A DNA stretch of 64,000 nt from Terriglobales bacterium. GTDB taxonomy: Bacteria > Acidobacteriota > Terriglobia > Terriglobales > Acidobacteriaceae. Location of the stretch: assembly GCA_035487355.1 (NCBI GenBank), contig DATHMF010000105.1, forward strand, positions 1 to 64,000. Reading direction: 5' to 3'. Shown here piece after piece: positions 7,875-24,317 of this stretch. How positions within the stretch are numbered: the first letter of the stretch is position 1; the number at the start of each line of letters is the position of its first letter. A model generated the notes under the pieces. It was not told the DNA's origin, made no database searches, and saw only the letters and a program-made list of their open reading frames with translations. The translations under genes and the position numbers were made by a program.

Positions 7875-8441
7875 TTGAGTAAGACAGTTGCCACTGAAGA
7901 ACGTGTTCTGCTGAGTCCAGAGCAGATCCAAAAGCGCATTCGCGAGTTGGCCCGGCAGATTTCAGATGACTACCGGGGCAGGACCTGCTGTGTTGTCGGA
8001 GTACTGGAAAATGGCTTTATGTTCATGTCTGATCTGGTGCGAAACTTGGAAGTGCCCGTGATCTGCCAGTTCATTAAGCCTCATATGCATGAACTTTCGG
8101 CGGGCGGCATTTCTCGAAAAGAAATCAATTACAGCCCCTCGGTGGATGTAAAGAACCAGCACGTGCTGCTGGTTGAAGGATTAGTGCAAAGCGGCATCAC
8201 CAGCGATTACCTGATGCACCATTTCAAGGCTCAGGGGGCGTCTTCGGTAAAACTGGCGGCCTTTCTGGATAAATCCTCGTCTCGTAGGGTTTCCCTGCGG
8301 CCCGACTATTACGGATTTGTTCTTGATGAATCGTTCGTGGCCGGCTATGGCCTCGGATCTCCCCATCTAAACCGCAATTTGCCCTATGTAAGGATTGAAA
8401 ACAGCCGTTTTTCAAACCCCCCGGACGAGACTGTTCGCTGA
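7875..8441 (+). CDS. hpt: Divergent hypoxanthine phosphoribosyltransferase-like protein
   Basis: Predicted Hpt-like protein of 188 residues starting at TTG 7875, with GAGGG about seven bases upstream. Hpt normally makes IMP or GMP from the base and PRPP. Fold markers are present: VGVLENGFMFMSDL in place of the usual LKGSxxFxADL, and a C-terminal PDYYGFVLDESFVAGYGL close to the family's FVVGYGLD. However, the PRPP-binding loop normally reads EDIxDTG, and here it is E101-G-L-V-Q-S-G107. The second acidic residue is Gly and the general-base Asp is Gln. Position between tilS and ftsH is that of true hpt. It may have lost catalysis or become regulatory; activity is uncertain. Confidence 0.8.
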   Translation: MSKTVATEERVLLSPEQIQKRIRELARQISDDYRGRTCCVVGVLENGFMFMSDLVRNLEVPVICQFIKPHMHELSAGGISRKEINYSPSVDVKNQHVLLVEGLVQSGITSDYLMHHFKAQGASSVKLAAFLDKSSSRRVSLRPDYYGFVLDESFVAGYGLGSPHLNRNLPYVRIENSRFSNPPDETVR

Positions 8442-8661
8442 AATCCGGGTTAGGGTAAATATCCCACGGGTTAGAAAGCTAATCCTTTAGTTACGTTAGT
8501 TATATCCATCTCTGGTTAAAAAGGGTTTAGAATCGTAGGAAGTGGTTTTTTGCGTCGGTCGAAAATGGTTACAACGCATCTAATCACCAAGCGTCATAAC
8601 AGTTATGAGGCTGTCTCAAGGTCCCAGTAAGGCTGTGACCTGCAGAAGTTAGGAGTACGTG

Positions 8662-10569
8662 GTGAATTCAACCGTAAAAACGATTGTGGTATGGGCGGTC
8701 ATCCTGTCGTCCATCATTGTGCTGTACCAGGTAATCAAATCAAATGGTCCCAACAAGGAAAAGGAACTCAACTTTTCTGACTTCATGAGCGAAGTGGACC
8801 AGGGAACTATTACAAAACTAACCATTTCTCTGGAAAATTATGAGGCTAAGGGTACGCTTCGCGACGGTAGCACCTTTCGTACCGCGGTTCCTCCCAATTA
8901 TCCGCACATGATTGACGTTCTGACCGAGAAGAAAGTCCCGTTCATATATCAACCTATAAGCTCGGGCAATTGGCAGACTGCTTTGATGTTCTTCGGGCCG
9001 GTGCTGCTGCTGGGAGCGTTCTGGTTCTTCATGATCCGCCAGATGCAGACCGGGGGCAACAAGGCCCTCAGCTTTGGCAAGAGCCGCGCCCGGCTGCTGA
9101 GTATGCAGCAAAAGAAGGTCACGTTTAAAGACGTTGCTGGCGTGGACGAAGCCAAAGAAGAGCTGCGTGAAATTATCGAATTCCTGCGCGAAGCGCAAAA
9201 ATTCCAGAAGCTGGGCGGACGCATTCCTAAAGGCGTGCTGCTGGTCGGCCCTCCAGGAACCGGCAAAACGCTGCTGGCCCGCGCCGTGGCCGGCGAGGCC
9301 AATGTGCCTTTCTTCTCGATCTCCGGTTCAGACTTCGTGGAAATGTTTGTAGGCGTGGGCGCAAGCCGCGTCCGCGACCTGTTTGAGCAGGGCAAAAAGA
9401 ATGCGCCTTGCATCATCTTCATTGATGAAATTGACGCCGTGGGCCGCCACCGTGGCGCTGGCCTCGGCGGTGGACATGACGAGCGCGAGCAAACCTTGAA
9501 CCAGTTGCTGGTCGAGATGGATGGCTTCGAGTCGAACGAAGGCGTCATCCTGGTGGCTGCCACCAACCGCCCTGATGTGCTTGATCCGGCGCTGCTGCGC
9601 CCCGGCCGCTTTGACCGGCGCGTAGTGGTAAGCCGTCCGGACGTGCGTGGACGCGAAGAGATTCTGCGCGTTCACACTCGCAAGATTCCTCTCTCCGACA
9701 ATGTGGAATTGAACATATTGGCCCGCGGCACACCTGGATTCTCAGGCGCTGATCTGGCCAATATGGTGAATGAAGCGGCACTGCTGGCGGCACGCAATAA
9801 CCGCAAGACCGTCACCATGTTCGACTTCGAGCTGGCCAAAGACAAAGTTCTCATGGGCGCGGAGCGCAAATCGCTGCTTCTTACGGATGAAGAGAAAAAG
9901 GTCACGGCCTATCATGAAGCAGGCCATGCCCTGGTTGCCTCCAAGCTGCCGTATGCCGATCCTTTGCACAAGGTCACGATTATTCCGCGCGGCATGGCGT
10001 TGGGTGTAACCATGCAGTTGCCTGAGACCGATAAGCATAACTACACCAAGGAATACCTGGACACCGAAATTGCTATCCTCATGGGTGGCCGCCTGGCGGA
10101 GGAGATCTTCCTCAACCAGATGAGCACGGGCGCCAGCAATGACATTGAGCGTGCCACCGAGATGGCGCGCAAGATGGTCTGCGAGTGGGGCATGAGCGAT
10201 CTGGGTCCGCTGACCTTCGGCAAGAAGGAAGAGCAGATCTTCCTGGGCCGCGAAATCGCCCAGCACCGCGACTTCAGCGAAGAAACCGCCATGAAGATTG
10301 ACGTTGAGGTCCGTAAGATCGTGGATGCCGCATATCAGCGGGCCAAGAACGTGCTGGAAACCGACCGTGAGGCCCTCATCCGCGTGGCCAAGGCGCTGCT
10401 AGAGCGTGAAGTGCTCGATGCCAACGAGTTGAAGCTGGTGATCGAAGGCAAAGACTTGCCTAAGCCACCAACTCCTAACGACAACGACGGCGCCCCTCAG
10501 CATGTGCTGAAGCCGGAACTCAAACCGGAACGCGCTCCGGGTATGGCTCCAGGACAGCAGCCGGCGTAA
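8662..10569 (+). CDS. ftsH: ATP-dependent zinc metalloprotease FtsH
   Basis: FtsH is the membrane-anchored AAA+ protease that extracts and degrades membrane proteins and some regulators. GTG 8662 is chosen because AGGAG (8651-8655) lies six bases upstream; the GTG at 8659 would be too close. The 635-residue product has two membrane segments (~7-25 and ~105-125) flanking a periplasmic domain. Walker A GPPGTGKT is at 196-203, Walker B is IIFIDEID, the second region of homology includes [19 protein letters not shown], and the zinc site HEAGH is at 418-422. The C-terminal tail is rich in Pro. It is third in tilS-hpt-ftsH and ends before a strong terminator. Confidence 0.98.
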
Positions 10570-10592
10570 TCGTTACAACTAAAATGTTCAAC

Positions 10593-10625
10593 AAGGGCGG
10601 CCTCAGTGCCGCCCTTATTTTTTTA
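10593..10625 (+). terminator. Rho-independent terminator after ftsH
   Basis: A perfect 9-bp GC-rich stem AAGGGCGGC/GCCGCCCTT (10593-10601 with 10608-10616) with a 6-nt loop is followed by ATTTTTTTT. It begins about 24 bases after the ftsH stop. Confidence 0.93.
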
Positions 10626-10634
10626 GGTCGTTAT

Positions 10635-11102
10635 CTAACTTCCGAGCGGCGGACTGCTGGCTAAAGCCGGTTGGTCGCTTTCCATATGTATGACTCCATC
10701 CTCTGAGCTGAAGAAATGCCAGCAGCCCGTGCAGCTGGGTTGGATAGGATCGGCATTGATGGTGAATGAATCCAGTTTGCCTTCGTGTTTCTTGTGGAAG
10801 GCCCGGTAGGTAAACACGTATCCATTTCTGCGGTGGTCCGCCCATGTTCCGTTTGTGAGCCACTCATAATTCTGCTTAGACGACGTGGTTCCCTTTAGTT
10901 GCGACATCTGTTCAAGGCTGTCGGGATAATAGCCATATTCGGTCTGATACGTCGTCGCAGCGTTAACGATAGTACGGACGCCGACAATTGCCGAATCTGT
11001 ATTGCCGAGCTGTATGAACCGCGGCACAACAAAGGCAATCGCAACAACCAAACAGATAGTCGCGACGGCAACTATTGTAAAGATCGTCTTGTTCAGCTTC
11101 AT
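10635..11102 (-). CDS. Pilin-like membrane protein (short paralogue, no zinc ribbon)
   Basis: Encodes 155 residues starting MKLNKTIFTIVAVATICLVV, with AAGGG just upstream of the ATG. A single hydrophobic helix (~6-28) is followed by a pilin-like region: AIVGVRTIVNAATTYQTEYG and YYPDSLEQM, and near the end NADPIQPSCTGCWHFF and SSEDGVIHME. The same blocks occur in the next gene, so the two are paralogues. No prepilin peptidase site (Gly before Phe-Thr-Leu-x-Glu) is present, so it is probably a permanently membrane-anchored protein. It ends close to the ftsH terminator on the opposite strand. Function is unknown. Confidence 0.8.
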   Translation of the reverse strand: MKLNKTIFTIVAVATICLVVAIAFVVPRFIQLGNTDSAIVGVRTIVNAATTYQTEYGYYPDSLEQMSQLKGTTSSKQNYEWLTNGTWADHRRNGYVFTYRAFHKKHEGKLDSFTINADPIQPSCTGCWHFFSSEDGVIHMESDQPALASSPPLGS

Positions 11103-11166
11103 GTTCCCTTGGATGCACTAGTCCGATTCATTGTGAACGAATTTCTGTATCTAGACTAACTGGCAG

Positions 11167-11784
11167 CTATTGCAATGGGGGGCTCTCGGCTGAGGCCTGG
11201 TGGTCGATTTCCATCCTCACAACTCCATCCTCTGAGCTGAAATAATACTTCATGCCTGTACGGCCGGGTTGAATGGGGTCGGCGTTGATCGTGAACGCAT
11301 CATATTTGCCGTCGTGGTGCGAGTCAGAGGCCTGGTAAGAAAACACATATCCGTTTTTGGCACGGCTGGCCAGCGTTGCATCAATGAAGCCGGCGTGGTT
11401 CTCATCGGGTGCAGCATTACCCGGAGGCTGGGAAAGCTGATCGAGCGTCTGCGGATAATGACCGTATTCAGCCTGATATTGTATGGCTGCGGTAACGATC
11501 GTACGCACACAGGCAATTGCCGAAGACTGGTTAGCAGAAATTCGGGCCCTCATCAAGTTGGGAATGGCAATGGCAGCAACAATAAGAATCAAAGGGATTG
11601 CAAGCACAAGAATCGCGACCACCACCACGGCAATGACGATGGTCTTATCACTCGATTTGGCCTTTGCCGCTGGCGGGTAATAGGGCGCGGCGGCCGTGGG
11701 TAAGACGCTGGTATCGGCTCCGCACTTCATGCAGAACTTCTGGCCGTCGGCCGCGGACTCTCCGCATTGCGGGCAAAATCTCAT
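11167..11784 (-). CDS. Zinc-ribbon protein with pilin-like C-terminal part (paralogue 2)
   Basis: The ATG at 11784 is preferred because AGGAG lies seven bases upstream; it gives 205 residues. An N-terminal zinc ribbon (C4, C7, C18, C21; MRFCPQCGESAADGQKFCMK) is followed by a Pro/Ala linker and a hydrophobic helix (~49-74). That helix runs straight into IPNLMRARISANQSSAIACV, the segment found after the leader cleavage site in acidobacterial type IV pilins. The rest (TAAIQYQAEYGHYPQTLDQL, then NADPIQPG and SSEDGVVRME) matches the neighbouring paralogue. The ribbon sits where a prepilin leader would be, so classical processing is not expected. Function is unknown. Confidence 0.85.
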   Translation of the reverse strand: MRFCPQCGESAADGQKFCMKCGADTSVLPTAAAPYYPPAAKAKSSDKTIVIAVVVVAILVLAIPLILIVAAIAIPNLMRARISANQSSAIACVRTIVTAAIQYQAEYGHYPQTLDQLSQPPGNAAPDENHAGFIDATLASRAKNGYVFSYQASDSHHDGKYDAFTINADPIQPGRTGMKYYFSSEDGVVRMEIDHQASAESPPLQ

Positions 11785-11890
11785 GGTCTCACTCCTGTTG
11801 ACTGCAAACCAGCATTCATTATGAACCCACTTTGCAAAATTTAGTGCTGCTCCCCAGCTTCGTTTTCGGGTTTCTTTTTCTGCAGGATCT

Positions 11891-12544
11891 TTACTGCTGC
11901 TTATCCTGGCTGTCTTCCGATCCCAGAGGAGGACTTCCTGCCCCCGCAACTCTCTTGGAAACGCGGATGATTCCCGTTTGATCTAAGTAAAAATGACGCT
12001 CTCCCTGGAAATTAGAGACCGGATCCACATACAGCACAAAGGCCGTGGCATGGCCGGCGACATCCAGCGCGCGGGCATCGTAGGAAAAGCGATACCCGGA
12101 TTGCTCGGGCAAGGTCTGGGACGAATCTACCAGCGCCGCGCCAAATTCATTGGGCTCTCCGCTGGCACGCGGGCCCAGGAGCGCGAGGTCGGTGGGATAT
12201 CCGTGCTGGTATGTGTCGTGGTACACGGTCAAAGCATGGTTCAGTTTCTGCAGACTCTGGACCGCGGCCGCCTCGTTGGCGCTTATCTGTTTGCTAATGA
12301 TGGTGGGAACAGCTACGGCTGCAACAATCGCCAGGACAGGAATGGCAACAACCACCAGGATTGCACCCACGACCAGCCAAATCGTCTTGGAGCTGGTTTT
12401 GGCAGGAGTGGGAGGAGGGAACAACGGCGCCGGAAAGTTGCTGCTGGGGCCAACAGCGGGAATTGCACTTACATCCGTGCCACATACCATGCAGAACCTT
12501 TGATGATCCTGCGCTGTCTGGCCGCATTGTGGACAAAACCGCAC
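11891..12544 (-). CDS. Zinc-ribbon protein with pilin-like C-terminal part (paralogue 3)
   Basis: Starts at GTG 12544, with GAGG about eight bases upstream, and encodes 217 residues. The architecture matches the neighbouring gene: zinc ribbon C4, C7, C18, C21 (MRFCPQCGQTAQDHQRFC), a Pro-rich linker, a hydrophobic helix (~53-80), then ISANEAAAVQSLQKLNHALT and TYQHGYPTDLALLG, which resembles a pilin core. The C-terminal half has diverged (YVDPVSNFQGERHFYLDQTG) but keeps the pattern of a final SPPLGS, found in all three genes. With the two following genes it forms a tandem family on the minus strand. The job of the family is unknown. Confidence 0.85.
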   Translation of the reverse strand: MRFCPQCGQTAQDHQRFCMVCGTDVSAIPAVGPSSNFPAPLFPPPTPAKTSSKTIWLVVGAILVVVAIPVLAIVAAVAVPTIISKQISANEAAAVQSLQKLNHALTVYHDTYQHGYPTDLALLGPRASGEPNEFGAALVDSSQTLPEQSGYRFSYDARALDVAGHATAFVLYVDPVSNFQGERHFYLDQTGIIRVSKRVAGAGSPPLGSEDSQDKQQ

Positions 12545-13608
12545 CCTCTTGTCCTCGCAAAGAAGGTTTTAGCACATTTTCGAATCGTTAGCTCTTAAGC
12601 TTTTGCCTTTAGCTCTTAGCTTTCAAAAACAAAACCGCCGCAGATGCACGCAGACTAACACTGCTTCGGGAAAATTACTCAAAAAGCCTCTGCGTAACTC
12701 CGCGATCTCTGCGGTTTCACTTGTTTGTTTTGGGAAGAAAAATCAAGAGGAGACGAGAATCAAAAAGCTGAGAGCCAAAAGCTACTAAGAGCTTCTTTCC
12801 AAAATAAAAGAATCCCGAGGGGGCGGTTCACCAATTCTCCTCTGCCAGCAGCTCGCGTTAGACCCTCGCTGACCTGCTCTCGCAGATTGTGCGGCTTTCA
12901 CCGCGGCAAACTGCGCGCGATCATGCTCGGGCTCCGGGCTAACCACCAACCGGGAAAATCCGGTTAACTTCCTCGGGACTCTATACTGCCTTCAACAAGA
13001 TTTCCGTTCTCCTCACCCAGCAGATTGCTATAGACCCTCACCGACCCTCCGCCTTTTTCTGACTACGCCTTGCGGCGCAGCCCCCACCAAGCTTGCGGGC
13101 TTGATGGTTTTCTGCTCCCGAGCGCCGCTACGCTGTGGAAGCATTTGGCGGTGATCTAAGCTTGAGCCCCGGACGCACTACCAACTGGGAAAACTTAGAA
13201 AAATGTCAAAGAACGATTATGTTTTTACGCCTCTCAGTTTTTATGTCAATGAAATTATCGAGCTTTTATCGCCTTTGTTTTCACTAAGCTGCAGCTCGTC
13301 CACAGGCCGGTGCCGCAGATTTTGTGCAGGTGATTTTTTATTTTCTCCAAACGGCACAAATTGACGCGAATTTTGCAGCGTATTTTATTTACGCAATCGA
13401 ATAACTGCTTTGCCTGCGTGGAAAAATCGTTGTGCAAAAACTGTGCTAAGACAATGTTAATGCGGGTTACCCGACAAAAGAGCAATCGAAGATTTAATAT
13501 TCGAGATGCCCCTGTTGTTGGAATTGCGTGATTTCTCGCTCACAAATTACGTCAAACGATCACCAGAAAACCAACCTGCTTCTATGGGAAATATCTTCAG
13601 CGCTGTGG
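12545..13608. other. Long gene-poor intergenic stretch with degenerate repeats
   Basis: About 1.1 kb without a convincing gene. The left part (12600-12800) contains a copy of the dispersed CCGCAGAT-type repeat. Between about 12845 and 13195 two loosely similar blocks follow each other: each has CAGCAG, then TAGACCCTC, and ends in ACCAACYGGGAAAA. The right part (13200-13560) is more AT-rich and shows no reading frame with protein-like composition. Nothing else could be supported. Confidence 0.5.
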
Positions 13609-13675: not shown

Positions 13676-16600
13676 TCATTTTCCACCCTTGACCACATTG
13701 ATGTATTGTTGCTTGTTTTTCAACAGACTCTTGAGTTCGTCTTGAACCTGGGTTTGAAACTGGCTATCCGCTGATGCGCGTTCGGCAATGGCAGAAAGCA
13801 TGTCCAGTTTCTTCAGATTTGTCTCTATGTCATTCTTCTTATTCAACTTTTCTAAGTTATCAAGCTCCTTGTCATTCATCTCTATGCGGATCGCTTTCGC
13901 GGCCTCAGCAGAAAGTGCGAGCCCATATTGCTTAGCGGCCTTCACCAACGCTTTGTCAATCTGATCACTGACGTCGACGCCAAGTACTTTTTTGGTCACG
14001 CCATCACCGATGGGCGTGCACGCACCAAATTCACATCCTTGGCTGTTTGGCAACAATCCGCCAAGCAGGCTTTGGGGCTGAAGGTGTATAAAGCCGGGAA
14101 GCCCCAGGTTCTCGCTCAACGGTGGACGCGGACGGGGGTTGACTGTGCCATGGAAGACAGGATGAGGATGTCCTCCGCCAAACAAGAAGTGGATCAGCTG
14201 TCCAATCCCGAGAATCAGATCGATGATGCAAATTTCCGGATTACCCGTGGCCACGCCGATTGCGCAGGGACCGCCTCCGTCCAAGCCGGAGGGATCTCTG
14301 AAGTTGGCTGGGTTGCCGTTGACATAACCGTAGCGATTGAAGCTTTGCGGATTGCTCGGATCCCCTTCCAGCAGATCCGCGCTCATAAAGCGTCCCAGAC
14401 GCGGGTTGTAATAACGAAGATTGGCATAATCGAGACCGGACTCGAAATCGTGTTGGTAGCCGGTGAAGTGGATGGCGCTGTAATCAGGCCCGGAGCAGGA
14501 CAAGCCATCGCCGTAGATCTGGCTGGAGCAAACCTCGACCACCGAACCGGTCCAATCGGTCGTCACCCGGTCCGTCTGCTCCCAGTCGTTATAGGAAAAA
14601 TATGCGGCCGAATTTCCAGGAGCGTTGTTGTAGGAACCAATATGGGAACCGTCAAAGTAGTTCTCCGCCTGGGTCCATGTCCCCGAAGGTCCGACGGTTG
14701 CAACCACATTGTTCGCAAGATCGTAGACGAACTCAGAGACGCCCCCTGGAAGTATCTTGTGGACTCGTCTTCCGTCGACATCGTAGGTATAGGTTGCGGT
14801 CGAGCCGCCGTCTATGGCAATGATCCTGTTTTCGGCGTCATAGGTGAAAGTATGAAATCCATCGTTCGTAACGTTACCCAGAACGTCGTAGGTCACTCCA
14901 CTGCCATGATTGTTGGCATCAAAGGACTGCTGTACGCTGAGTGCGCCATTCTGATGCCAGCGATTGGCGTAAGCGTCAAAGTCCCAGGTATATCCGGTAC
15001 CGCTGTTAAGGCGCTTGAGGTCATCGTAACCAAAACTCAGGTTCCCCATCACGGAATCATTGCTTGAGGTGATGAGGTTATCGAGTCTGAGAGCATTGTT
15101 AAATGAATATATCGTGTTAACTGGGTGACTATCGGTGCCACCACTTAGACTGCCACTGTTGGGACTGAGGGTATAAGGCGCAGGAAACATGCTGCCGTAA
15201 ACGGAACTGTAGGTGAAGCTGAAAGCAATTCCATTGCCTACTGTTCCTAAATGCTTAGCCGTAAGAGTAATTTGCCCATTGGAAGCGCTGGCGCTAACGT
15301 CGGGCGAGCTAAAATTATTCACCAGCGACTGTGCCATCTGTTGTGCAGTAAATCCGCAGATGTAAGTGATCTGCGGTGTGGAAGCTGAACCTACACTCAT
15401 GCTGACGTAGCCGATGTCGCAGTTTCCGCTGCTGTCGCTATAGGGCTGTCCACTCAGTGTGATCGTGGCCTGGGCTGGCGCAACTCCAACCGGCGGAGCC
15501 CCTATGGTCTCTCGTTTCGAGCTCACCGAACCTCGTGGAGAGTATCCAATGGCCTCCACGACTCCGTTGCCATACGAAGCCTGTGTGCGACCGAACGGTC
15601 CGTAGTGGATACCCGAGATCAAAGTGCCGGGATGAGTAGAATCTGCCAAATTGCTCGTCATTCCGATGGTGCGTCCGCCGGTCGTTCCTCCTGAGTGGTA
15701 AAGGTAAGAATACGTGACGCCGGCCGCGCCATTCGTAAAGCTGGTGCGCGAAGAAGCCAGATTATATTGATAGCCCATGGTGGTGTAGCTGCCTGTCGCA
15801 AAAAGCCGGGGAGTAGATTGGTAGTCATAAAGCACATTTCCCATGGCATCGTAGTAAAAACCAGAACCATTGCCCCTGGGGCCCCGGGCAATTTTCGAAG
15901 TAAGCCTGCCGATTCCCATCGAACCAGAATGTCCAGCCATCGTGGTTTCATCGTAGTAATAGTTCACGGGCGGAGTCACGCCATCGTCGTAGCCCGTGCT
16001 GAGTAACCGGCCCAACGGGTCATAAGTGTAGGTCGTTGTCAGCAATTGTGTGGGATCACTTTGGTTGGGTTTAGGTCTCTTTCGAGTCTGTAGATTGTCG
16101 TTATCGTCATAGCTGTAGGACACAACAGAGGACTGACCATCCATTTCAGGAATCGCATCAGCCACCAGGCGCCCCAGGCTGTCATAGGCCTTGGTCCGGA
16201 CCGTGCGATTCCCCTGGTTGACCTGAAGCAAATCATCGAGAACATCGTATTGATAGATAGTCAAATAACCCGTGGCGGCATAATCCTGCCCGCACGCTGC
16301 CGTCGAACTGCTGCCAATATAGCTGGTGGAACTGACCTCACAAACGGAGGCAGTCCGCCCAAAGGCATCATATTGCTTTACCTTGGTTACGATGCCGCGT
16401 TCGTCATAGAACACCTGCGCTGCGTTATCAAAACCAAAACCGATGAAACTTTGGTCTGAGTGGGTAATTGTGTCAAGTCTTCCGAATGTATCGTAGGTAT
16501 AGGAATCTCCATTCCCTGAGCAAACTTTCGGGGTTGCACCGTTCGTCTGGTATGGATAGGAATTGAATTGCAACTGGCCGCGCGTATCATAGCACTGGTC

Positions 16601-18829
16601 CTGCACATTGAAAGTGCCTTCCTCGTTGGTAACACCTTTGCGGTCAGGACGGCCCAGGGTATCGAAGTGTATGTACGTCACCTTGGTTGTTCCTGACCCG
16701 TCGATCTGTTCGGTCCTGGTGTTGTAGGTTGGATCAGGGTAAGCGAAAGTAGTGTTACCCCCGCCCGGAGGGTTCGTGAGAGAGGTAAGACGTCCGAGGT
16801 TGTCATATCCGTAGCCGGTGGTCTGTGAGTTTTCATCGGTTGTGCTGGCGATCAGGCCACTGCTGAGGTCATAGCTGGTTTTGACAATATGCTGGGTTGT
16901 CGTCGGCGGGTTTGTGGATGCTGTATTCGGGGACTGGACTTGCGTCAAATATGCGTAGCCGTAAGCGCTGGAATACGCAAACGTGGTTTGCGCACCCAAT
17001 GGATCTGTCTGGCTGACTGCATTCCCAAGCTGGTCATAAGCTGAATGGCTTGAAATCCACCGGTCACTCCCTCCGTTGGTTCCTTGCAGCCAGCGTTGTA
17101 CGGTAGTCACGTTGCCGCGAACTAGATCGGTATAAGGGAAGTTCTGGTCATCATGCTGGGGAACTCCGTCAATATGAACAAGCCCAGGCTGAGGTTCGTC
17201 ATAGCTGATTTGGATTTGTGACCCGGGCTTTCCGGAGCTGTCTTTGATGACGACGCCGGAAAGCCGGTCAAGCATATTCTTCTGGATATATGCAGTATCG
17301 GTTTTATAGGAATAGTCCGTTTCCCGGTAAGGAACCGCCGGTGGAGCGCCGGTTGGATAATAGTCCCATTCCTTGACCGATGTTAGATTGCCATAGGCAG
17401 GGTTGTCGTAAGTGTATTCAGTCTTACTGCTCTTCCCATTGGGCAGGGTGAGCGTATTGCGGAAAGCTTTTATATATTGCGCTCCAGCGCAGTTCATGCC
17501 ACAGGGATTGCTGAAATCATAGTCCGTCGTTGCTGTAGCCGACAAAGATCGACCCGGGCTCCCGGGAGCGTTTGACCCGGTGTAATAATCCACTTGAGAG
17601 TTCCATGCTCCGTTGTTGAGAACAAAAGTGTAGACAATATCGTCTGCAAGTCTTGTCGCCGTCGCTGGACGGGTAACCGTCACTTTTTCCTGGCACCCGG
17701 TGCCGTTGGCGGCGCATTGCGAGATCACCGAAGGCGTGAATTGCCACGTTCCGCCATCGACAGCCATAGATGTAATCCAACGATTTTGGTTTTGATAGGA
17801 ATCCAGGAAATTGGAATAACCGTAGTTGATCTGCCCTCCGTTGGGAAGCGTAATGCTGGTTAATTCGCCATAGGCCCCTGCATCGTAATTGAAGGTATAG
17901 GATCCTCCATCCGGAAGTTGAATGCTCTGAATGACGGTTATGTTATCTCGAAACTCCGCGACGGCAGATTGTTGAAAGTGTGTCTGTACGAGAATCGTGC
18001 CTGTCGTGACGGTGTAGCGCGCGCGATTCCCCTGCCAGGTAAGCACATCATAGTAAGTCTGGTTCCCATTTTGCGTGACATTGACCGGTGACCGCTGCAA
18101 CGTATCCGTCAACAAGCCGCCATTGGTTCCTGCCGACAAATAGTTACCGTTCGAATCAGTAGGGCGCGGATAAACCTGGCTGCCATCTCTTGCATAGATG
18201 GTTATGTTGTTGTAGTTGGTTACAAATGCGTGCAGGCTGGAGCTGTCTGCCGCCATGGCATCAGCGTTCGGTTTGTCCTGGGGGCCAACGCCATTGGGAC
18301 ATCCTCCGCTGGGTGCCTGGAACGTTTGCAGGCCGTTGAACCAGTGCGACGTACCGTCCGGATCGGTATAGACCCAGGAACTATAGGAAGTTGCGCCCGG
18401 ATTGTTATTGACTCCATTGCAATATATTCCTGACGTTATGTTCGTGACCTTTCCGCTCAAAGGAGTTACCACTCGCCATCCTCCTTGTGAGTTGGGTATG
18501 TTGTCCGGCCTGAAACTATAGGCGACTTGGGGGTTGGCGATATTCACGATGTGCCAGATCCGGCTGTCGTATACCAGTTTCACATCGGCGGAAATGTTGC
18601 CGCGCTGCGGCAGTGAGCTCAAAGGAATTTCCAAATGCAAATTGCCGTTGCCCACATTGATAAAGCCGTTCTCGACCGGAATCTCCGTGGCAAATGACGG
18701 ATGCCCCGTAGCATAAATGTAGTCCTGCCCGTAGGATCTGGATGTCATCCAGAGCAATAAAGTGCAGCAAGAGAAAAATAATACTTTCCCTCGCAATGAC
18801 CCCTGCAGTTTGCGCCATGTAATCTTCAT
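13676..18829 (-). CDS. Exported RHS/YD-repeat protein
   Basis: The start at 18829 is chosen because GGGAG precedes the ATG by seven bases and a signal peptide follows (MKITWRKLQGSLRGKVLFFS...SYG); this gives 1717 residues. The protein has many YD repeats (YDxxGRLxxxT) forming a shell like those of RHS and TcC toxins. A ~120-residue insert without YD repeats (coding 15130-15500) interrupts them. The core ends with the RHS-associated pattern YYNPRLGRFMSADLLEGDP and RYGYVNGNPANFRDPSGL. After it comes a variable tip of about 205 residues rich in Lys, Glu and Leu, with no recognised toxin motif. No candidate immunity gene follows. Confidence 0.92.
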   Translation of the reverse strand: MKITWRKLQGSLRGKVLFFSCCTLLLWMTSRSYGQDYIYATGHPSFATEIPVENGFINVGNGNLHLEIPLSSLPQRGNISADVKLVYDSRIWHIVNIANPQVAYSFRPDNIPNSQGGWRVVTPLSGKVTNITSGIYCNGVNNNPGATSYSSWVYTDPDGTSHWFNGLQTFQAPSGGCPNGVGPQDKPNADAMAADSSSLHAFVTNYNNITIYARDGSQVYPRPTDSNGNYLSAGTNGGLLTDTLQRSPVNVTQNGNQTYYDVLTWQGNRARYTVTTGTILVQTHFQQSAVAEFRDNITVIQSIQLPDGGSYTFNYDAGAYGELTSITLPNGGQINYGYSNFLDSYQNQNRWITSMAVDGGTWQFTPSVISQCAANGTGCQEKVTVTRPATATRLADDIVYTFVLNNGAWNSQVDYYTGSNAPGSPGRSLSATATTDYDFSNPCGMNCAGAQYIKAFRNTLTLPNGKSSKTEYTYDNPAYGNLTSVKEWDYYPTGAPPAVPYRETDYSYKTDTAYIQKNMLDRLSGVVIKDSSGKPGSQIQISYDEPQPGLVHIDGVPQHDDQNFPYTDLVRGNVTTVQRWLQGTNGGSDRWISSHSAYDQLGNAVSQTDPLGAQTTFAYSSAYGYAYLTQVQSPNTASTNPPTTTQHIVKTSYDLSSGLIASTTDENSQTTGYGYDNLGRLTSLTNPPGGGNTTFAYPDPTYNTRTEQIDGSGTTKVTYIHFDTLGRPDRKGVTNEEGTFNVQDQCYDTRGQLQFNSYPYQTNGATPKVCSGNGDSYTYDTFGRLDTITHSDQSFIGFGFDNAAQVFYDERGIVTKVKQYDAFGRTASVCEVSSTSYIGSSSTAACGQDYAATGYLTIYQYDVLDDLLQVNQGNRTVRTKAYDSLGRLVADAIPEMDGQSSVVSYSYDDNDNLQTRKRPKPNQSDPTQLLTTTYTYDPLGRLLSTGYDDGVTPPVNYYYDETTMAGHSGSMGIGRLTSKIARGPRGNGSGFYYDAMGNVLYDYQSTPRLFATGSYTTMGYQYNLASSRTSFTNGAAGVTYSYLYHSGGTTGGRTIGMTSNLADSTHPGTLISGIHYGPFGRTQASYGNGVVEAIGYSPRGSVSSKRETIGAPPVGVAPAQATITLSGQPYSDSSGNCDIGYVSMSVGSASTPQITYICGFTAQQMAQSLVNNFSSPDVSASASNGQITLTAKHLGTVGNGIAFSFTYSSVYGSMFPAPYTLSPNSGSLSGGTDSHPVNTIYSFNNALRLDNLITSSNDSVMGNLSFGYDDLKRLNSGTGYTWDFDAYANRWHQNGALSVQQSFDANNHGSGVTYDVLGNVTNDGFHTFTYDAENRIIAIDGGSTATYTYDVDGRRVHKILPGGVSEFVYDLANNVVATVGPSGTWTQAENYFDGSHIGSYNNAPGNSAAYFSYNDWEQTDRVTTDWTGSVVEVCSSQIYGDGLSCSGPDYSAIHFTGYQHDFESGLDYANLRYYNPRLGRFMSADLLEGDPSNPQSFNRYGYVNGNPANFRDPSGLDGGGPCAIGVATGNPEICIIDLILGIGQLIHFLFGGGHPHPVFHGTVNPRPRPPLSENLGLPGFIHLQPQSLLGGLLPNSQGCEFGACTPIGDGVTKKVLGVDVSDQIDKALVKAAKQYGLALSAEAAKAIRIEMNDKELDNLEKLNKKNDIETNLKKLDMLSAIAERASADSQFQTQVQDELKSLLKNKQQYINVVKGGK

Positions 18830-19761
18830 GATCTTCTCCCTACAATTCTGGTTCTTGGTGATGGAAAGAACGGCTTGTTTCACAGAGAGGAATCCCCTCC
18901 GCTTGCCTGTGACCCTTTTAAACAGGCAGAGCACAGCAGGATTCCCCTCTCTATTCATCAAGTGCTGGTTTTAAGAAAAGTATTGGAAATTTTTTTTAGC
19001 TAAGGTAAGAAATGGCGGTTGATTGGGAGTAAGTCTTTATTTTTCAGTTGTTTGCCAAAACAGTTTCCCCGTTCTCAGTAAAAGACAAGTCTAACCACAA
19101 AGGCACAAAGGAAAACTGGCAAACTGAATACTGCTTGATACCACCCTGGTATCAAATGATTGATTTCTTGGAAACTGCGGGCCATCATTGTGCCAGACGT
19201 GTGTCTACGTTAAGCATTCAAGTATGCCCAGGCTTAGGCCGGGTAAGCTTTTGGTGAGCGCTTGTCCCGCGCGAACTAAAAGCGAGGGCGTAGCGGTTTT
19301 ACCGCGGAGCCCTTAGAAAGAAAGTTCTTTGACAATTCGTTGTCGGTGAATCGAAGCGTGAGCTTTCGGCGTCCTTGGGGGCCTGGAGCTGTTTCTTAGA
19401 CTGCCGGGTCCATTACTCCATTCTTAGTCGTAAGAAATTGATTGCTAAGGATTTAGAGTGGCGTCCACTACTCTAAGTAATGGGGGGGTGAGGACCTACG
19501 GAACAAGGGATTTAAGAGCAGTACTCGGACTTTCTTATGTACTCTCACCCCATCCGGGCAGACTAGCAGCAAGTCCCCTCCCCTGGATCGCTCTTCGCCA
19601 ATAATAACGCGGGGCAGACGCGATTCAGGGCACTCCAAACACTTGCTAGCAAGTGGGTTGGCGGCCCCACACAATCTTCTAAAAATCTGCGTTGATCTGC
19701 GGCGAAGGTCCTTATGCTTTTCTCAGTTCGAGACCCCGTCCCCTGGGCATTCCGCAAATTT
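18830..19761. other. Intergenic region with repeat copies and a palindrome
   Basis: About 0.9 kb between the RHS gene and the phosphate-binding/OmpA gene. It contains an AACCACAAAGGCACAAAGG repeat copy (19093-19111), a perfect 9-bp inverted repeat (19135-19155) and a copy of the CTGCGTTGATCTGCGG repeat (around 19685). Short reading frames on both strands lack protein-like features. No gene is called here. Confidence 0.5.
19135..19155. repeat. Perfect 9-bp inverted repeat
   Basis: TTGATACCA (19135-19143) and TGGTATCAA (19147-19155) are exact reverse complements with a 3-bp CCC centre. It has no T-run, so an operator or REP-like element is more likely than a terminator. Confidence 0.6.
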
Positions 19762-21288
19762 TCATTTTTTCAACCAGATTTCGACGCGGCGGTTCTTGTC
19801 GCGTCCGTCTTCGGAGTCGTTGGATGCTACGGGAAGTTCAGAACAAAAGGCCGCGGTGGTTGACGGCCGCACTCCCCGCAAAATGAACTGCTCTTTCACA
19901 GATTCGGCGCGCTTCTTGGAGAGATCACAATTCACGCGCGCGCTTCCTTTATTGTCGGCAAATCCGAGAAGGAAGATGTTGTCGCCGGAATAATGCAGAT
20001 CGGTCAAAAAGGTGACGACGCGGTCGAGATCATCTACCGCTTTGTTGTCCAGGTCGGATTTCCCGGCACGGAAGCGAAAATTCAACGACAACCTCTGCGC
20101 GCCCTCGATAAGCCGGCGGTATTCAGTCGGCGCACCAGTCGGAACGGGACCGGCAACCGGCTGCACGTTTTGGCCGACGAAGCCGATCTTCTCGACGATG
20201 TTTTGTCCCTCGCTGGATAAAGCGAAATTTATGAACTTGAGAGTCAGATCGTTGGGCGGGCTGGCAGGGGTATAAAAGAATAGGCGGCGTGAGAGCGGAT
20301 AATCTTCCGTCGCAACCGTCATGCGATTCGGCATGAGCGAGCGGCTGCCACTGTCAGAGACGGCAATGGCCTTGGCCGATTGAACGTAGGGCAACCCGAT
20401 GAAGCCAATAGCACTGGGATCTTTGGCAACGGAATCGGAAAGTTCGCGGCTATCTTCCACTCTGTGAGCGGAGGCGACCAGAGGTTTGCTGCCCAGCACA
20501 AGAGTTTTGAAGGTGTCATAGGTCCCCGACTTATCATTGCGCGCGAACACGTTGACGGGCGCACTGGGGCCGCCGACTTGCGACCAATTGTTAATTTCCC
20601 CGGTAAACAACTGCGCAACCTGACTTTTACTGAGCGACTCTACGGGGTTGGTTTTGCTTACGATCACGGCGATGCCGTCGAGTCCTAAGACGTGCTCGGA
20701 CGCGGGTGAGGTCATGTCCCCAAAGCTTGCGAGCTGGCCGGCTTCGGCGGGCTTGATCTTGCGCGAGGCCATGCCGACATCACAGGCGTTCTTCTGCAGA
20801 TCTTCAAATGCAGTTGCCGAACCGTGAGCGTGAATCTCAATCACCCGGGGAGCGGAGTCGCCCGGCATGATGCCCTGGACGCGCACCTCGTCCTCTTTGT
20901 CACCGGGAACGGTTTTTACTTCGGTTGCCCCCTGCTGCCTGAGAAACCCTTCAGCCAGGGCCGGCGCCAAAGCAGCGCCGATGGTGTTCGAGCCGCTTAG
21001 CTTGAGAATCGCTCCGGTAGAGGAAGCAGCAGCGTTACCATGAAGCCGGGCAGAAATCTGTGGCCAGAAAAAGTAGATTGCTCCTCCTGCGAGCACGATC
21101 ACCAGCAAGGCAACCACGGCCTGGACGGGAGACTTCCTCTGCGACTGCGGAGCTTTCCAGATCGGGCCCAGGGCCCGATTGCATTCCGGACAGGCGAATG
21201 CTTTGCCTTCTGCTATGGTGATGAGTTCACGGCTGTCGGCTTTATTGCACATGCCGAAATTGGTGCACTTTCCGGTACGGGTTGGCAT
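19762..21288 (-). CDS. Zinc-ribbon, PstS-like and OmpA-domain membrane fusion protein
   Basis: A 508-residue protein. Order: a short Cys-rich N-terminal domain (C8, C14, C33, C36) that could bind zinc; one membrane segment (~56-75); a PstS-like substrate-binding domain (~95-370), with LKLSGSNTIGAALAPALAEG and NKSGTYDTFKTL-type blocks; and a C-terminal OmpA domain (NFRFRAGKSDL to GRDKNRRVEIWL) expected to contact peptidoglycan. With the N-terminus in the cytoplasm, the binding and OmpA domains would lie in the periplasm. The gene begins 29 bases after the tubulin-like gene and is probably co-transcribed. No PstCAB genes are near, so a role in phosphate uptake is unlikely. Confidence 0.9.
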   Translation of the reverse strand: MPTRTGKCTNFGMCNKADSRELITIAEGKAFACPECNRALGPIWKAPQSQRKSPVQAVVALLVIVLAGGAIYFFWPQISARLHGNAAASSTGAILKLSGSNTIGAALAPALAEGFLRQQGATEVKTVPGDKEDEVRVQGIMPGDSAPRVIEIHAHGSATAFEDLQKNACDVGMASRKIKPAEAGQLASFGDMTSPASEHVLGLDGIAVIVSKTNPVESLSKSQVAQLFTGEINNWSQVGGPSAPVNVFARNDKSGTYDTFKTLVLGSKPLVASAHRVEDSRELSDSVAKDPSAIGFIGLPYVQSAKAIAVSDSGSRSLMPNRMTVATEDYPLSRRLFFYTPASPPNDLTLKFINFALSSEGQNIVEKIGFVGQNVQPVAGPVPTGAPTEYRRLIEGAQRLSLNFRFRAGKSDLDNKAVDDLDRVVTFLTDLHYSGDNIFLLGFADNKGSARVNCDLSKKRAESVKEQFILRGVRPSTTAAFCSELPVASNDSEDGRDKNRRVEIWLKK

Positions 21289-21317
21289 AGTCGTTTCTCT
21301 ATCTTTAAATTGTTTAT

Positions 21318-24317
21318 TTATTGTCTGGTTCCCAGGAGGACTACAGCAGCTTCTCCCGCGTTATAAAACATGCGATAGACCTTATCCGACGGATTCTTGC
21401 GCCTGGCCTTGATCTCTTCCACCTGCGACTGCACCGAGGCGCTCAAAGCCTCTCTCTTCTGCACGTGCAGATACTCTTTTTTCAGCAGCGGCTGAATGGT
21501 CGCCACCAGCGCGTCGAAGGTGAGCTTGTTGGATTCACTGATGGCCTCGTTGATATCACGTCCCAGAGAGACCGGAGGATTGTCTGCTCCTGCCTCGCCC
21601 TGATTGACCAGGTAGAGATTTTTGAGGCCGGTCGAGGGGTCCTCCAGGGTCTGCACCACGTGCATGGCTTTGCCGATCATCAGGTAGGCCAGGAACTTTC
21701 TGGGTTCAACGTCCTCCACGTAGAGGTTCGGCAGGGCCGGGCCTTCGCTTTCCAGGTGCAGCTCCATTCTGGCCTGCTCGGAGTTGCTGGCCCTGATGCG
21801 CTGCTCATATTTCTCGCGCAGGAATTCGGCTTGCTGGATGAAGCGAACCGGGAACAGATTGGTGATGTTCACCAGGGTGATTTCCCGGGCTTTGGCGTTG
21901 CTGATCACCTCGACCTTGGCTCCGGCCGCCGCCTTCTCAAATTCACTGCGCAGCGCCCCGAGAAATCCCGCAGCGTGGGCAGCCTCGGGGAGGATGATGG
22001 AAAGGCAGGAGACGAATCCCTCGCCCGGAAACGTGCCGGGGCCCTGGCGCGTGATCTCGGCCTGACTGAAGCGCAGATAAGGCCTAGCGCGGGAAACAAC
22101 ATCGGCGAGATACGCCCGCAGCGCCTGGGGATCTTCCTGATACTGGTGCTGCAGTCGCTCTAAGACGCTCAACTGCAAAATCCGCGCATCAGGAGAGGTG
22201 GCGGCAACATAGTTGTTGTGCGCCGCGACCACGTTTTTCAGGCTGGTGATTTCCAGAATGTCCGCAAACTTTTCTTTGGGAACGCGAAGATTGAAGCTGG
22301 CGAAGCCGTGATTCGCTCCCAGCAGCCGGGCCAGTGCGGCGCGCACGGTGGTGCTGTGCTTCTGCTGCTCGGCGCGGTCACGGACCACGGCTTTGACAAA
22401 GTTTTTGACCGCCTCGGGTTGATAGAAGCGGATGACCGGTTTCTGCACGCCGGCCTGGCCGGCATCGGAGCAGCGCTCGGCGACGCGTGCGGTGAAGTCT
22501 TTGATGACCTCAACCATCATGGCCGCGCAGTGATCAGCCTCTGAGGCCAGCATGGCCACCTCGCTGATGAGCGCCGGCAACAGCTTCACGGCAAATCCCA
22601 GGCCTTCGATGCGCGTGCGATAGATATACAACTGCTGCAGGGATTCGATCTGCGCATTCAGCAGGGTCTCGCGTTTCCCCTTGCCGGCAATCACGCCCAG
22701 GCGAGACCACTCGGCGGCATGGGAGGCGACGCGGGCTGCGGCCTCCTCTTCCATTTGCCGGTGTTTGGCGAGCTTGCCTTCCATCTGCTGCTCGCGCTCT
22801 TCGAGCGAGGCCAGAAGCGCTGCCAGAATGCGTGAGATATCATGCATAGACCGCAGGCCCGCGATCCATTCCTGGAAAAGCTCTTTTTCAATGCGTACGC
22901 AGAGTTCGCGGACGTAGCCGCCGATCTTCTCGCGCGGGGTCTCGTAAAAACTTTGCACGCCGACGTCGCGATAGTTCTGGGAAAAGGCGGCCTCGCAAAG
23001 CTTCGACAACTCCTCCAGCCAGACGCGCTCGTTTCTGTCGAACGACTCGTGGACGTGCGACATCAGGTTGGGCACCAGGTTGAGCCAGAAGGCGTTGATG
23101 GGCTTCCAGCGCTTGTTCTTGACCTCATCGGGCAAAATACCTTCGGAGAGGACCAGGTGCTCGTCTGACAGACACCAGCGCTGCAGTGTTTCCTTCAGGC
23201 GAACGAACTCGGTGAAATTCCGGGTGCCGGGACCTTCGGAATATCCGCGGGATTCGATCCAGTGATTGAATTGCAGTTGCAGGGCTGCCTGACGTGCGAA
23301 GGTGTAGGTCAGATACTCCTGGATCTCTTCTTCCGGATAGATAATCTGCTTGATGCCAAAGGTGAAGAACTGGCGGGAGCGCTCGGCATTGCGGGTGAAG
23401 GGAGATTCTTCGGCGCGGCTATCCATGTTCTCGAAGGTCTCCTGCTGTCGCAGAGAATCCCAGACCATGTCTTTTACGGCGACGATCTTCTGATATAGAA
23501 ATGCAGAAACCAGCTCAGGAATTTCCTTGTCCACATCAAGTTTGTTCTGGTCTTCGTTCTCGTCGGAAAACAGGTAACAGCAGTTGAATGGGTCCTGCTG
23601 CACGAGCCGGTCTTTCCTCTCGCCTGACAAGTCGTGCGGCTTGAAAGCGCCGACACTGAGCGCGTTCAGCTCCATCAGTGCTGCATAACCGTTGGCGTGG
23701 TAGTTGGCACCGGCACGGCTTGCGCCCGGATTTCGTTCCGGCAGCAAAGCATAAACCAGGATGCGGTAATGCTTGTCGGGATACAGCGCCCGGATCTGGG
23801 AAACAGCATCCACAACGCATCCGCTGCCGATGCCGCCCGCCAGACCACAGCAGACGTGAAACGTCACCGGGGCCGGACTGCCAGCTTCCATTTCCTTGAC
23901 CAGTGTCTCCACTTGCCAGCGGAACCAGGTCACGCCACCAGCAAACAACAGCCTTCCCAGACGCCGCTTCTGACCGCCAGTGATACCTCCGGCAGCAGCG
24001 GAGTTGAATACACTGCGAAACATTTCGCGGTCGCCGATCCAGGGGCTGATCCCCGGATAAACCTCAGGATTTTCCAATACCGAAGTCAGGTCCTCGCCTG
24101 AGATCTTGCTGAGCTGTACGTTATGGTCCACGACCTTCCATGGGCTGGTGGGATCTTCAGGAACCATACTCTCGTCGCTGGAGTCTACGTAGAGATAGCG
24201 GACATTCACCCCCACAGGGCCTTCACTGCGGAAGTTCTGACAGACCGTCTTGCGTAAATAGCGCAAGACCTTTCCGCCGGTTCCACCGAGTCCTATGACG
24301 AGGTGATTATTGATCAT
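21318..24317 (-). CDS. Tubulin-like GTPase (Tubulin_2 family)
   Basis: A 999-residue predicted cytoplasmic protein starting MINNHLVIGLGGTGGKVLRY. The N-terminal domain has a glycine-rich nucleotide loop (G11-G15) and a tubulin/FtsZ-type signature AGGIGSG (161-166), with GGITGG nearby. These are hallmarks of the Tubulin_2 family, a divergent group of FtsZ/tubulin relatives. The middle and C-terminal parts are long and mostly helical, including a Glu/Gln/Arg-rich stretch that may form a coiled coil. The gene is first of a two-gene unit with the PstS/OmpA fusion. The tail and mode of polymerisation cannot be judged from sequence. Family assignment is good; biological role is open. Confidence 0.88.
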   Translation of the reverse strand: MINNHLVIGLGGTGGKVLRYLRKTVCQNFRSEGPVGVNVRYLYVDSSDESMVPEDPTSPWKVVDHNVQLSKISGEDLTSVLENPEVYPGISPWIGDREMFRSVFNSAAAGGITGGQKRRLGRLLFAGGVTWFRWQVETLVKEMEAGSPAPVTFHVCCGLAGGIGSGCVVDAVSQIRALYPDKHYRILVYALLPERNPGASRAGANYHANGYAALMELNALSVGAFKPHDLSGERKDRLVQQDPFNCCYLFSDENEDQNKLDVDKEIPELVSAFLYQKIVAVKDMVWDSLRQQETFENMDSRAEESPFTRNAERSRQFFTFGIKQIIYPEEEIQEYLTYTFARQAALQLQFNHWIESRGYSEGPGTRNFTEFVRLKETLQRWCLSDEHLVLSEGILPDEVKNKRWKPINAFWLNLVPNLMSHVHESFDRNERVWLEELSKLCEAAFSQNYRDVGVQSFYETPREKIGGYVRELCVRIEKELFQEWIAGLRSMHDISRILAALLASLEEREQQMEGKLAKHRQMEEEAAARVASHAAEWSRLGVIAGKGKRETLLNAQIESLQQLYIYRTRIEGLGFAVKLLPALISEVAMLASEADHCAAMMVEVIKDFTARVAERCSDAGQAGVQKPVIRFYQPEAVKNFVKAVVRDRAEQQKHSTTVRAALARLLGANHGFASFNLRVPKEKFADILEITSLKNVVAAHNNYVAATSPDARILQLSVLERLQHQYQEDPQALRAYLADVVSRARPYLRFSQAEITRQGPGTFPGEGFVSCLSIILPEAAHAAGFLGALRSEFEKAAAGAKVEVISNAKAREITLVNITNLFPVRFIQQAEFLREKYEQRIRASNSEQARMELHLESEGPALPNLYVEDVEPRKFLAYLMIGKAMHVVQTLEDPSTGLKNLYLVNQGEAGADNPPVSLGRDINEAISESNKLTFDALVATIQPLLKKEYLHVQKREALSASVQSQVEEIKARRKNPSDKVYRMFYNAGEAAVVLLGTRQ

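Follow-up and report, generated by a model that had tools for sequence, protein, structure and literature searches.

A Tubulin_2-type gene paired with a predicted C4-ribbon membrane anchor in a Terriglobales bacterium

The gene pair and its predicted proteins

The window, which is the whole 64,000-nucleotide stretch of DNA analysed here, carries on its minus strand a gene for a Tubulin_2 (FtsZl1-type) protein, followed by a gene for a predicted membrane anchor (Table 1). The sequence-only reading had described two close-packed minus-strand genes of 999 and then 508 aa, and the ORF coordinates agree with this arrangement. The positions it gave for the two glycine-rich motifs of the tubulin and for four anchor cysteines (8, 14, 33 and 36) are likewise correct. 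Upstream, the pair is bordered by a divergent gene for an oligopeptide-ABC ATPase; on the other side, the gene of an RHS-repeat protein follows after some 800 bp that hold no convincing gene. No other nearby gene is clearly part of the pair. A promoter and terminator scan returned no more matches than shuffled sequences did. The downstream RHS/YD-repeat protein (13676-18961, minus strand; up to 1,761 aa) has a signal-peptide-like stretch and was not seen at the other loci of the window's tubulin clade that were inspected.

Table 1. Features of the two-gene unit, in positions of the window.
Feature	Position	Strand	Basis or remark
Tubulin_2 / FtsZl1-type protein	21318..24317	-	999 aa, ATG start; PF13809 E=2e-57
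Tubulin_2 nucleotide-binding domain, residues 1-345	23283..24317	-	Pfam stretch 6-344
T1-type motif GGTGG, residues 11-15	24273..24287	-	sequence
T4-type motif GGIGSG (consensus GGTGSG), residues 161-166	23820..23837	-	sequence
Tubulin middle part, mostly helical, residues 346-760	22038..23282	-	DSSP on model
Tubulin C-terminal domain, residues 868-999, candidate ribbon-docking domain	21321..21716	-	present/absent pattern in clade
Intergenic gap of the two-gene unit, 29 bp	21289..21317	-	
Ribbon-TM-PstS-OmpA anchor protein	19762..21288	-	508 aa, ATG start
C4 ribbon (CTNFGxCxxAD...CPEC), residues 1-42, predicted cytoplasmic	21163..21288	-	conservation, HMM
Single transmembrane helix, residues 55-82	21043..21126	-	model helix, hydrophobicity
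PstS-like phosphate-binding-protein domain, residues 88-370	20179..21027	-	PBP_like_2, Foldseek
OmpA peptidoglycan-binding-type domain, residues 398-507	19768..20097	-	PF00691

The larger protein matches the Pfam family Tubulin_2 (PF13809) over residues 6-344 with 195.5 bits, against a curated cut-off of 27. Among 20 clade members, G11, G12, G14 and G15 of the first motif are conserved in at least 90%, and G161, G162, G164, S165 and G166 of the second are invariant. The tubulin was modelled with AlphaFold2 on alignments of clade relatives. Its model (mean pLDDT 82.8, pTM 0.65) finds its best PDB matches by Foldseek in CetZ, eukaryotic tubulins and TubZ (E 2.6e-5 to about 1e-4, probability 1.00), and a phage tubulin is the one viral structure that it matches below 1e-3; the tubulin fold is thereby supported by structure prediction. 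DSSP assigns long helices to residues 491-539 and 546-614 and a helical C-terminus, in line with the extended coiled coil and helical C-terminal domain that mark the FtsZl1 family. Residues 1-345 are essentially the only region held in common with Tubulin_2 proteins outside the clade, and residues 1-867 are common to its complete members. The protein, with its predicted tubulin fold, would use GTP and may polymerise. A normal ftsZ gene is present elsewhere in the genome, and the Tubulin_2 protein is therefore not the division FtsZ.

The model of the smaller protein (pLDDT 77.8) consists of the ribbon (residues 1-42), a helix (55-82), a binding-protein domain (94-370) and an OmpA domain (about 398-507). 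In 21 aligned ribbons, C8, G12, C14, C33 and C36 are invariant, and the motif reads [KR]C-x-[NT]-[FL]-G-x-C-x-x-A-[DN] ... C-P-x-C; a single hydrophobic helix comes after it. The CPxC knuckle is similar to zinc sites in solved structures; the first cysteine pair is C-x5-C, not C-x2-C. Judged by its cysteines, the ribbon would bind zinc. The helix at about 55-82 is the single hydrophobic one, in keeping with the one membrane helix read earlier, and the charge balance around it favours an N-in orientation in 20 of 27 relatives. The anchor is thus predicted to be an N-inside single-pass protein, crossing the inner membrane once.

Both outer domains named by the sequence-only reading are recovered by Pfam, the phosphate-binding-like domain as PBP_like_2 (3.5e-35, residues 88-360) and the C-terminal one as OmpA (PF00691, 1.6e-14, residues 406-500). 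The top Foldseek match of the binding domain is the phosphate-bound PstS 4gd5, with a TM score of 0.88 by target length. Invariant in five relatives are S100, T102, R250, S254 and T256, which we take to be the residues expected to contact phosphate, as well as D445 and R460, presumably the diaminopimelate contacts. The PstS-like domain may bind a ligand and the OmpA domain peptidoglycan. The predicted structure agrees with the layout of ribbon, helix, binding domain and OmpA domain from which a trans-envelope geometry had been proposed; the polymer-to-peptidoglycan coupling in that proposal is conjectural.

A PstS-type binding domain is also a part of PstSCAB, but the absence of the transport genes, pointed out beforehand, holds for the annotated surrounding ORFs, none of which is PstC, PstA or PstB. 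Phosphate transport by the pair was rejected for want of a nearby pstCAB. At another place in the genome (G000:C9) there are two further PstS-type genes, with no obvious pstCAB among the ORFs inspected.

A ribbon-helix partner with exchangeable outer heads

Tubulin_2 scores above the cut-off in 23 of 396 Acidobacteriota genomes. Among the Tubulin_2 loci fetched from the phylum and class, only the window, the same-genus genome G574 and G233 show a ribbon, and neither PstS-OmpA nor a ribbon adjoins the tubulin in any Acidobacteriota locus fetched from beyond the window's clade. PstS/OmpA as a universal partner of Tubulin_2 was rejected on account of its absence from those loci. Relatives lacking the PstS/OmpA partner, which would speak against the pairing first described, are thus found across the family, but within the clade the partner recurs at six loci: the window, L055, L087, L088, L091 and L114, the last from Sulfurovum.

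When an alignment of three tubulins was used to scan GTDB genomes, 28 loci of the subfamily to which the window's tubulin belongs were obtained. They come from Acidobacteriota, Gamma- and Betaproteobacteria, Bacteroidota and Campylobacterota, with one from a Desulfocapsa MAG. The downstream flank is readable in 32 clade loci, and in 30 of these a partner with ribbon and membrane helix adjoins the tubulin. Included in the 32 are a second copy from Methylovulum (L185), one locus from a Burkholderiales genome (L188), that of the same-genus G574 and one on a Paraburkholderia plasmid (L085). L066 and L097 are one and the same locus, and L107, where the sequence breaks off shortly behind the tubulin, is left out of the count. 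The ribbons of L066, L089, L096, L098, L104, L105 and L108 escaped the initial pattern and were recovered by HMM or by eye; the divergent ribbon of L108, read by eye, is counted among the 30. The partner is encoded on the tubulin's strand in 27 of the 30 loci, and within 80 bp in 24 of those (a tally of 29 listed loci to which L105, at 42 bp, was added by hand). Since PstS/OmpA occurs at six clade loci and the ribbon-helix part in nearly all, the constant element of the partner is ribbon plus helix, not PstS/OmpA.

A ribbon HMM made from gammaproteobacterial proteins only, whose outer domains are wholly different from those of the window's anchor, matched the anchor's N-terminus at E=3.7e-17 among 9,681 ORFs. 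Because such a model finds the window's ribbon, the likeness is not an artefact of including the window in the model. At the level of sequence, the pairing with a ribbon protein is not a product of chance.

In the two sets of genomes searched, every confident ribbon also adjoins one of these tubulins. With E below 1e-10 defining a confident match in the profile search, ribbons occur among the 396 Acidobacteriota genomes only in the two that carry clade tubulins, G000 and G233; the next-best match (3e-4) is partial. Among 300 Burkholderiales genomes, seven of which carry some Tubulin_2, only G645 and G917 have ribbons, both adjoining Tubulin_2. Ribbon matches were found in 17 of 19 carrier genomes, usually a single one; two acidobacterial MAGs have expanded sets of four and five. 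Two ribbon proteins of G636 (L183, L184) have no tubulin within reach, which counts against reading the ribbon as a tether.

That a phosphate-scavenging binding protein merely came to lie beside a Tubulin_2 gene is close to refuted. Ribbon-less PstS-OmpA proteins without a tubulin do exist, as a tandem pair in G619 (L056:185-3445), a relative from the same family as the window's genome, and on a Pseudoalteromonas plasmid. The ribbon-fused form, however, tracks the tubulin clade across four phyla, and pstCAB genes are not nearby.

Beyond the helix, the partner varies. Besides the PstS-OmpA head, a SBP_bac_3-LysM head is fused to the ribbon in G233/L066, and in Chromatiaceae SBP_bac_3-LysM is encoded by a gene adjoining that of a ribbon protein with an FGE-sulfatase-like head. 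An NMT1-OmpA head occurs in L183, which does not adjoin a tubulin, but the genome carries one. TPR heads are found in Burkholderiales and L185, a vWA-like head in L093, heads without family assignment in L093 and L099, and glycine-zipper or proline-rich parts in L088 and L181. Short ribbon-helix proteins without any outer domain also exist (L089, L108, L184), and an outer head is therefore not always needed. Because PBP_like_2-OmpA, NMT1-OmpA, fused SBP_bac_3-LysM and SBP_bac_3-LysM from an adjoining gene all occur, the combination of a solute-binding with a wall-binding domain has arisen repeatedly, each time from other families. In L087, the ribbon gene is directly followed by one (L087:4706-6325) for a 539-aa protein that ends in a papain-fold toxin domain of the glutamine-deamidase type (Gln_amidase 2.9e-11); relatives of this protein in L087 and L088 are without the toxin domain.

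Some clade loci have further recurring neighbours. One is a membrane protein of about 260 aa with three helices and no Pfam family, encoded directly upstream of clade tubulins in three phyla (L088:8459-9217, L096:9144-9920, L185:12743-13534). It was considered as a part of the window's system and rejected, there being no convincing homologue in the window's genome. Caspase-like, DUF4384 and glycine-zipper neighbours recur at the Burkholderiales and Methylovulum loci; in the Burkholderiales operons (L111:6326-9350 and equivalents), all three are encoded with the tubulin, the caspase-like one as a lipoprotein. No accessory gene of this kind, including the three-helix protein of Acidobacteriota, Gammaproteobacteria and Bacteroidota, is present in the window. 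Because they are absent there, and the genome holds no clear homologue of the three-helix protein, the pair is a minimal two-gene version of the system.

The contig of L113, assigned to a Chitinophaga pinensis MAG, has a typical Burkholderiales version of the locus, which probably reflects a binning error or a recent transfer. Tubulin reading frames are split in L055:1-2018, L098:9977-12993 and L110:8823-11839, probably by frameshifts or assembly errors.

Loss of the ribbon and the conflict-system contexts

A maximum-likelihood tree of 54 Tubulin_2 domains, in which some outside branches are long and their order is not trustworthy, places all ribbon-paired tubulins in one group of 29 (support 94/97), a clade with members in Acidobacteriota, Pseudomonadota, Bacteroidota and Campylobacterota. 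The only non-paired members of this group are L094 and L095, together with the unscorable L107. Three label changes suffice on the tree, which is consistent with one gain of the ribbon pairing and two losses.

L094 and L095 are the only ribbon-less clade members and fall into different starred subclades; no ribbon is found anywhere in their genomes. Among clade members, tubulin residues 868-999 are missing in exactly these two, and the joint absence of ribbon and C-terminal domain in two cases suggests residues 868-999 as a candidate ribbon docking site. A partial Mantel test gave no excess co-divergence between ribbon and tubulin residues 868-999 (0.017); only residues 481-600 stand out (0.41), a value confounded by relatedness. 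In L094 (9941-14086), a STAND-type AAA domain takes the place of the tail, and the neighbours are TIR-AAA and TPR-S genes. The L095 protein (8264-12556) has about 560 extra N-terminal residues and PNP-VMAP-C and MoxR-like AAA neighbours.

These STAND/TIR and VMAP/MoxR contexts bear on the idea that the pair is a variant of NTPase-centred biological-conflict systems, in which the tubulin would be a platform or effector of anti-invader or cell-suicide defence and the exchangeable heads would be sensors or effectors. The GAP1-N2 GTPase-centric conflict systems of Kaur et al. (2020; PMC7159879) resemble the clade in having tubulin domains together with zinc ribbons, TM segments and extracellular wall- or ligand-binding domains. 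Secreted caspase-like peptidases in the Burkholderiales operons and the patchy spread over phyla, with few genomes per order, point the same way. The ribbons of the GAP1-N2 systems, however, sit on a TRAFAC GTPase, whereas the window's ribbon belongs to an anchor with one membrane pass. Neither DO-GTPase, GAP1 and FNIII-repeat proteins nor MoxR, vWA and nuclease genes occur among the annotated ORFs that surround the pair. The acidobacterial tubulin loci have no caspase-like genes, and the conflict-type contexts are exactly those without a ribbon. The tubulin itself has no PADLOC match, and the anchor matches ZorB in its OmpA part only. A conflict system is therefore an unlikely explanation, though not a negligible one.

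With MotB and ZorB, the anchor would share, by analogy, a single inner-membrane helix and a C-terminal OmpA domain. It differs from them in the additional PstS-like domain and ribbon, and the pair is without a MotA/ZorA-type stator gene. WP_152441739.1, named by NCBI as a phosphate ABC transporter substrate-binding/OmpA family protein, is 44.5% identical over residues 95-506 and shares TM helix, PBP_like_2 and OmpA domain with the anchor; unlike in the window, its N-terminal part is not a C4 ribbon and no tubulin adjoins it.

A proposed membrane-tethered tubulin and the known FtsZl1 family

The reading we favour, and hold to be slightly more likely than not, is that of a membrane-tethered tubulin-like GTPase whose anchor spans the inner membrane and carries ligand- and peptidoglycan-binding heads. 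The inner component would be the cytoplasmic tubulin-fold GTPase with its helical tail, and a dedicated partner would cross the inner membrane once. Because the pairing is exclusive and conserved, the C4 ribbon on the cytoplasmic side may recruit the tubulin to the membrane, where the C-terminal domain of the tubulin might perhaps contact it. The exchangeable outer head, here PstS-like and presumably oxyanion-binding, with an OmpA domain, could read a periplasmic ligand and clamp the assembly to peptidoglycan. The tubulin would then assemble on the inner membrane at places or times set by the occupancy of the head or by wall attachment. On the other side, even the paper that founded the family (PMC2875224) does not decide whether its members form filaments.

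A broader reading has slightly less than an even chance in our judgement. It sees a hitherto undescribed, cross-phylum, horizontally mobile trans-envelope system in which the tubulin-like GTPase assembles at the inner membrane by way of the C4-ribbon adaptor, and in which one cytoskeletal protein is connected to different envelope signals by exchange of the head, which may be a phosphate-, amino-acid- or NMT1-type binding domain with OmpA or LysM, or a TPR, FGE-like or vWA domain.

FtsZl1/Tubulin_2 was described in 2010 by Makarova and Koonin (PMC2875224), with frequent vWA, GTPase and kinase neighbours. The initial assessment of the family as known but poorly characterised stands in its first part; its genomic context is less unknown than that assessment implied, since OmpA-domain neighbours in several genomes were published in the same paper. 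According to its text, FtsZl1 and the window's tubulin are alike in family, motifs, an N-terminal tubulin domain with a long helical tail and coexistence with a normal FtsZ. The OmpA-domain neighbour of the 2010 operon is shared too, being part of the next gene in the window; the vWA protein, P-loop GTPase and kinase of that operon are not among the annotated ORFs around the pair.

Remodelling of membranes or formation of vesicles by a tubulin-like filament, with the anchor acting only as a tether, seems improbable for the window's pair. It was proposed for the whole family by Makarova and Koonin (PMC2875224), and it agrees with the predicted tubulin fold and with the presence of a normal ftsZ, by which the protein is not that of division. 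Their paper, however, gives no confident identification of filament-contact elements. No remodelling partner is found in the window, and the recurring solute-binding and wall-binding heads would be left unexplained.

The tethered tubulin speaks to a question raised at the time. A reviewer in the 2010 paper (PMC2875224) objected that a cytoplasmic FtsZ-like protein cannot meet periplasmic proteins and, given the binding-protein neighbours, suggested transport or signalling; the fused anchor of the window fits both remarks. The main text of that paper makes no mention of a C4 ribbon-helix anchor with swappable heads. A literature search, with most subscription journals outside its reach, found no paper combining Tubulin_2 with a zinc ribbon. 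Known from earlier work, then, are the tubulin family, its OmpA neighbours and ribbon-containing tubulin conflict systems; the ribbon anchor with exchangeable heads was not found in the literature searched and appears to be new here. If the tethered reading is true, a cytoskeleton-type protein would be controlled directly by a ligand in the periplasm or by attachment to the wall, and a dedicated anchor that crosses the membrane once, with its ribbon inside and its binding head outside, would be a testable answer to the cytoplasm-periplasm question on FtsZl1. Culturable hosts for such tests are found in Massilia, Janthinobacterium, Paraburkholderia and Spirosoma.

A minor observation concerns the T6 element, which, according to the 2010 paper (PMC2875224), could not be identified for the FtsZl1 family. 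Residues 246-256 of the window's tubulin (23550-23582) include CCYLFSDENE, which resembles the S6-T6 stretch of tubulin (YCIDNE); within the clade, N254 is invariant and E255 nearly so.
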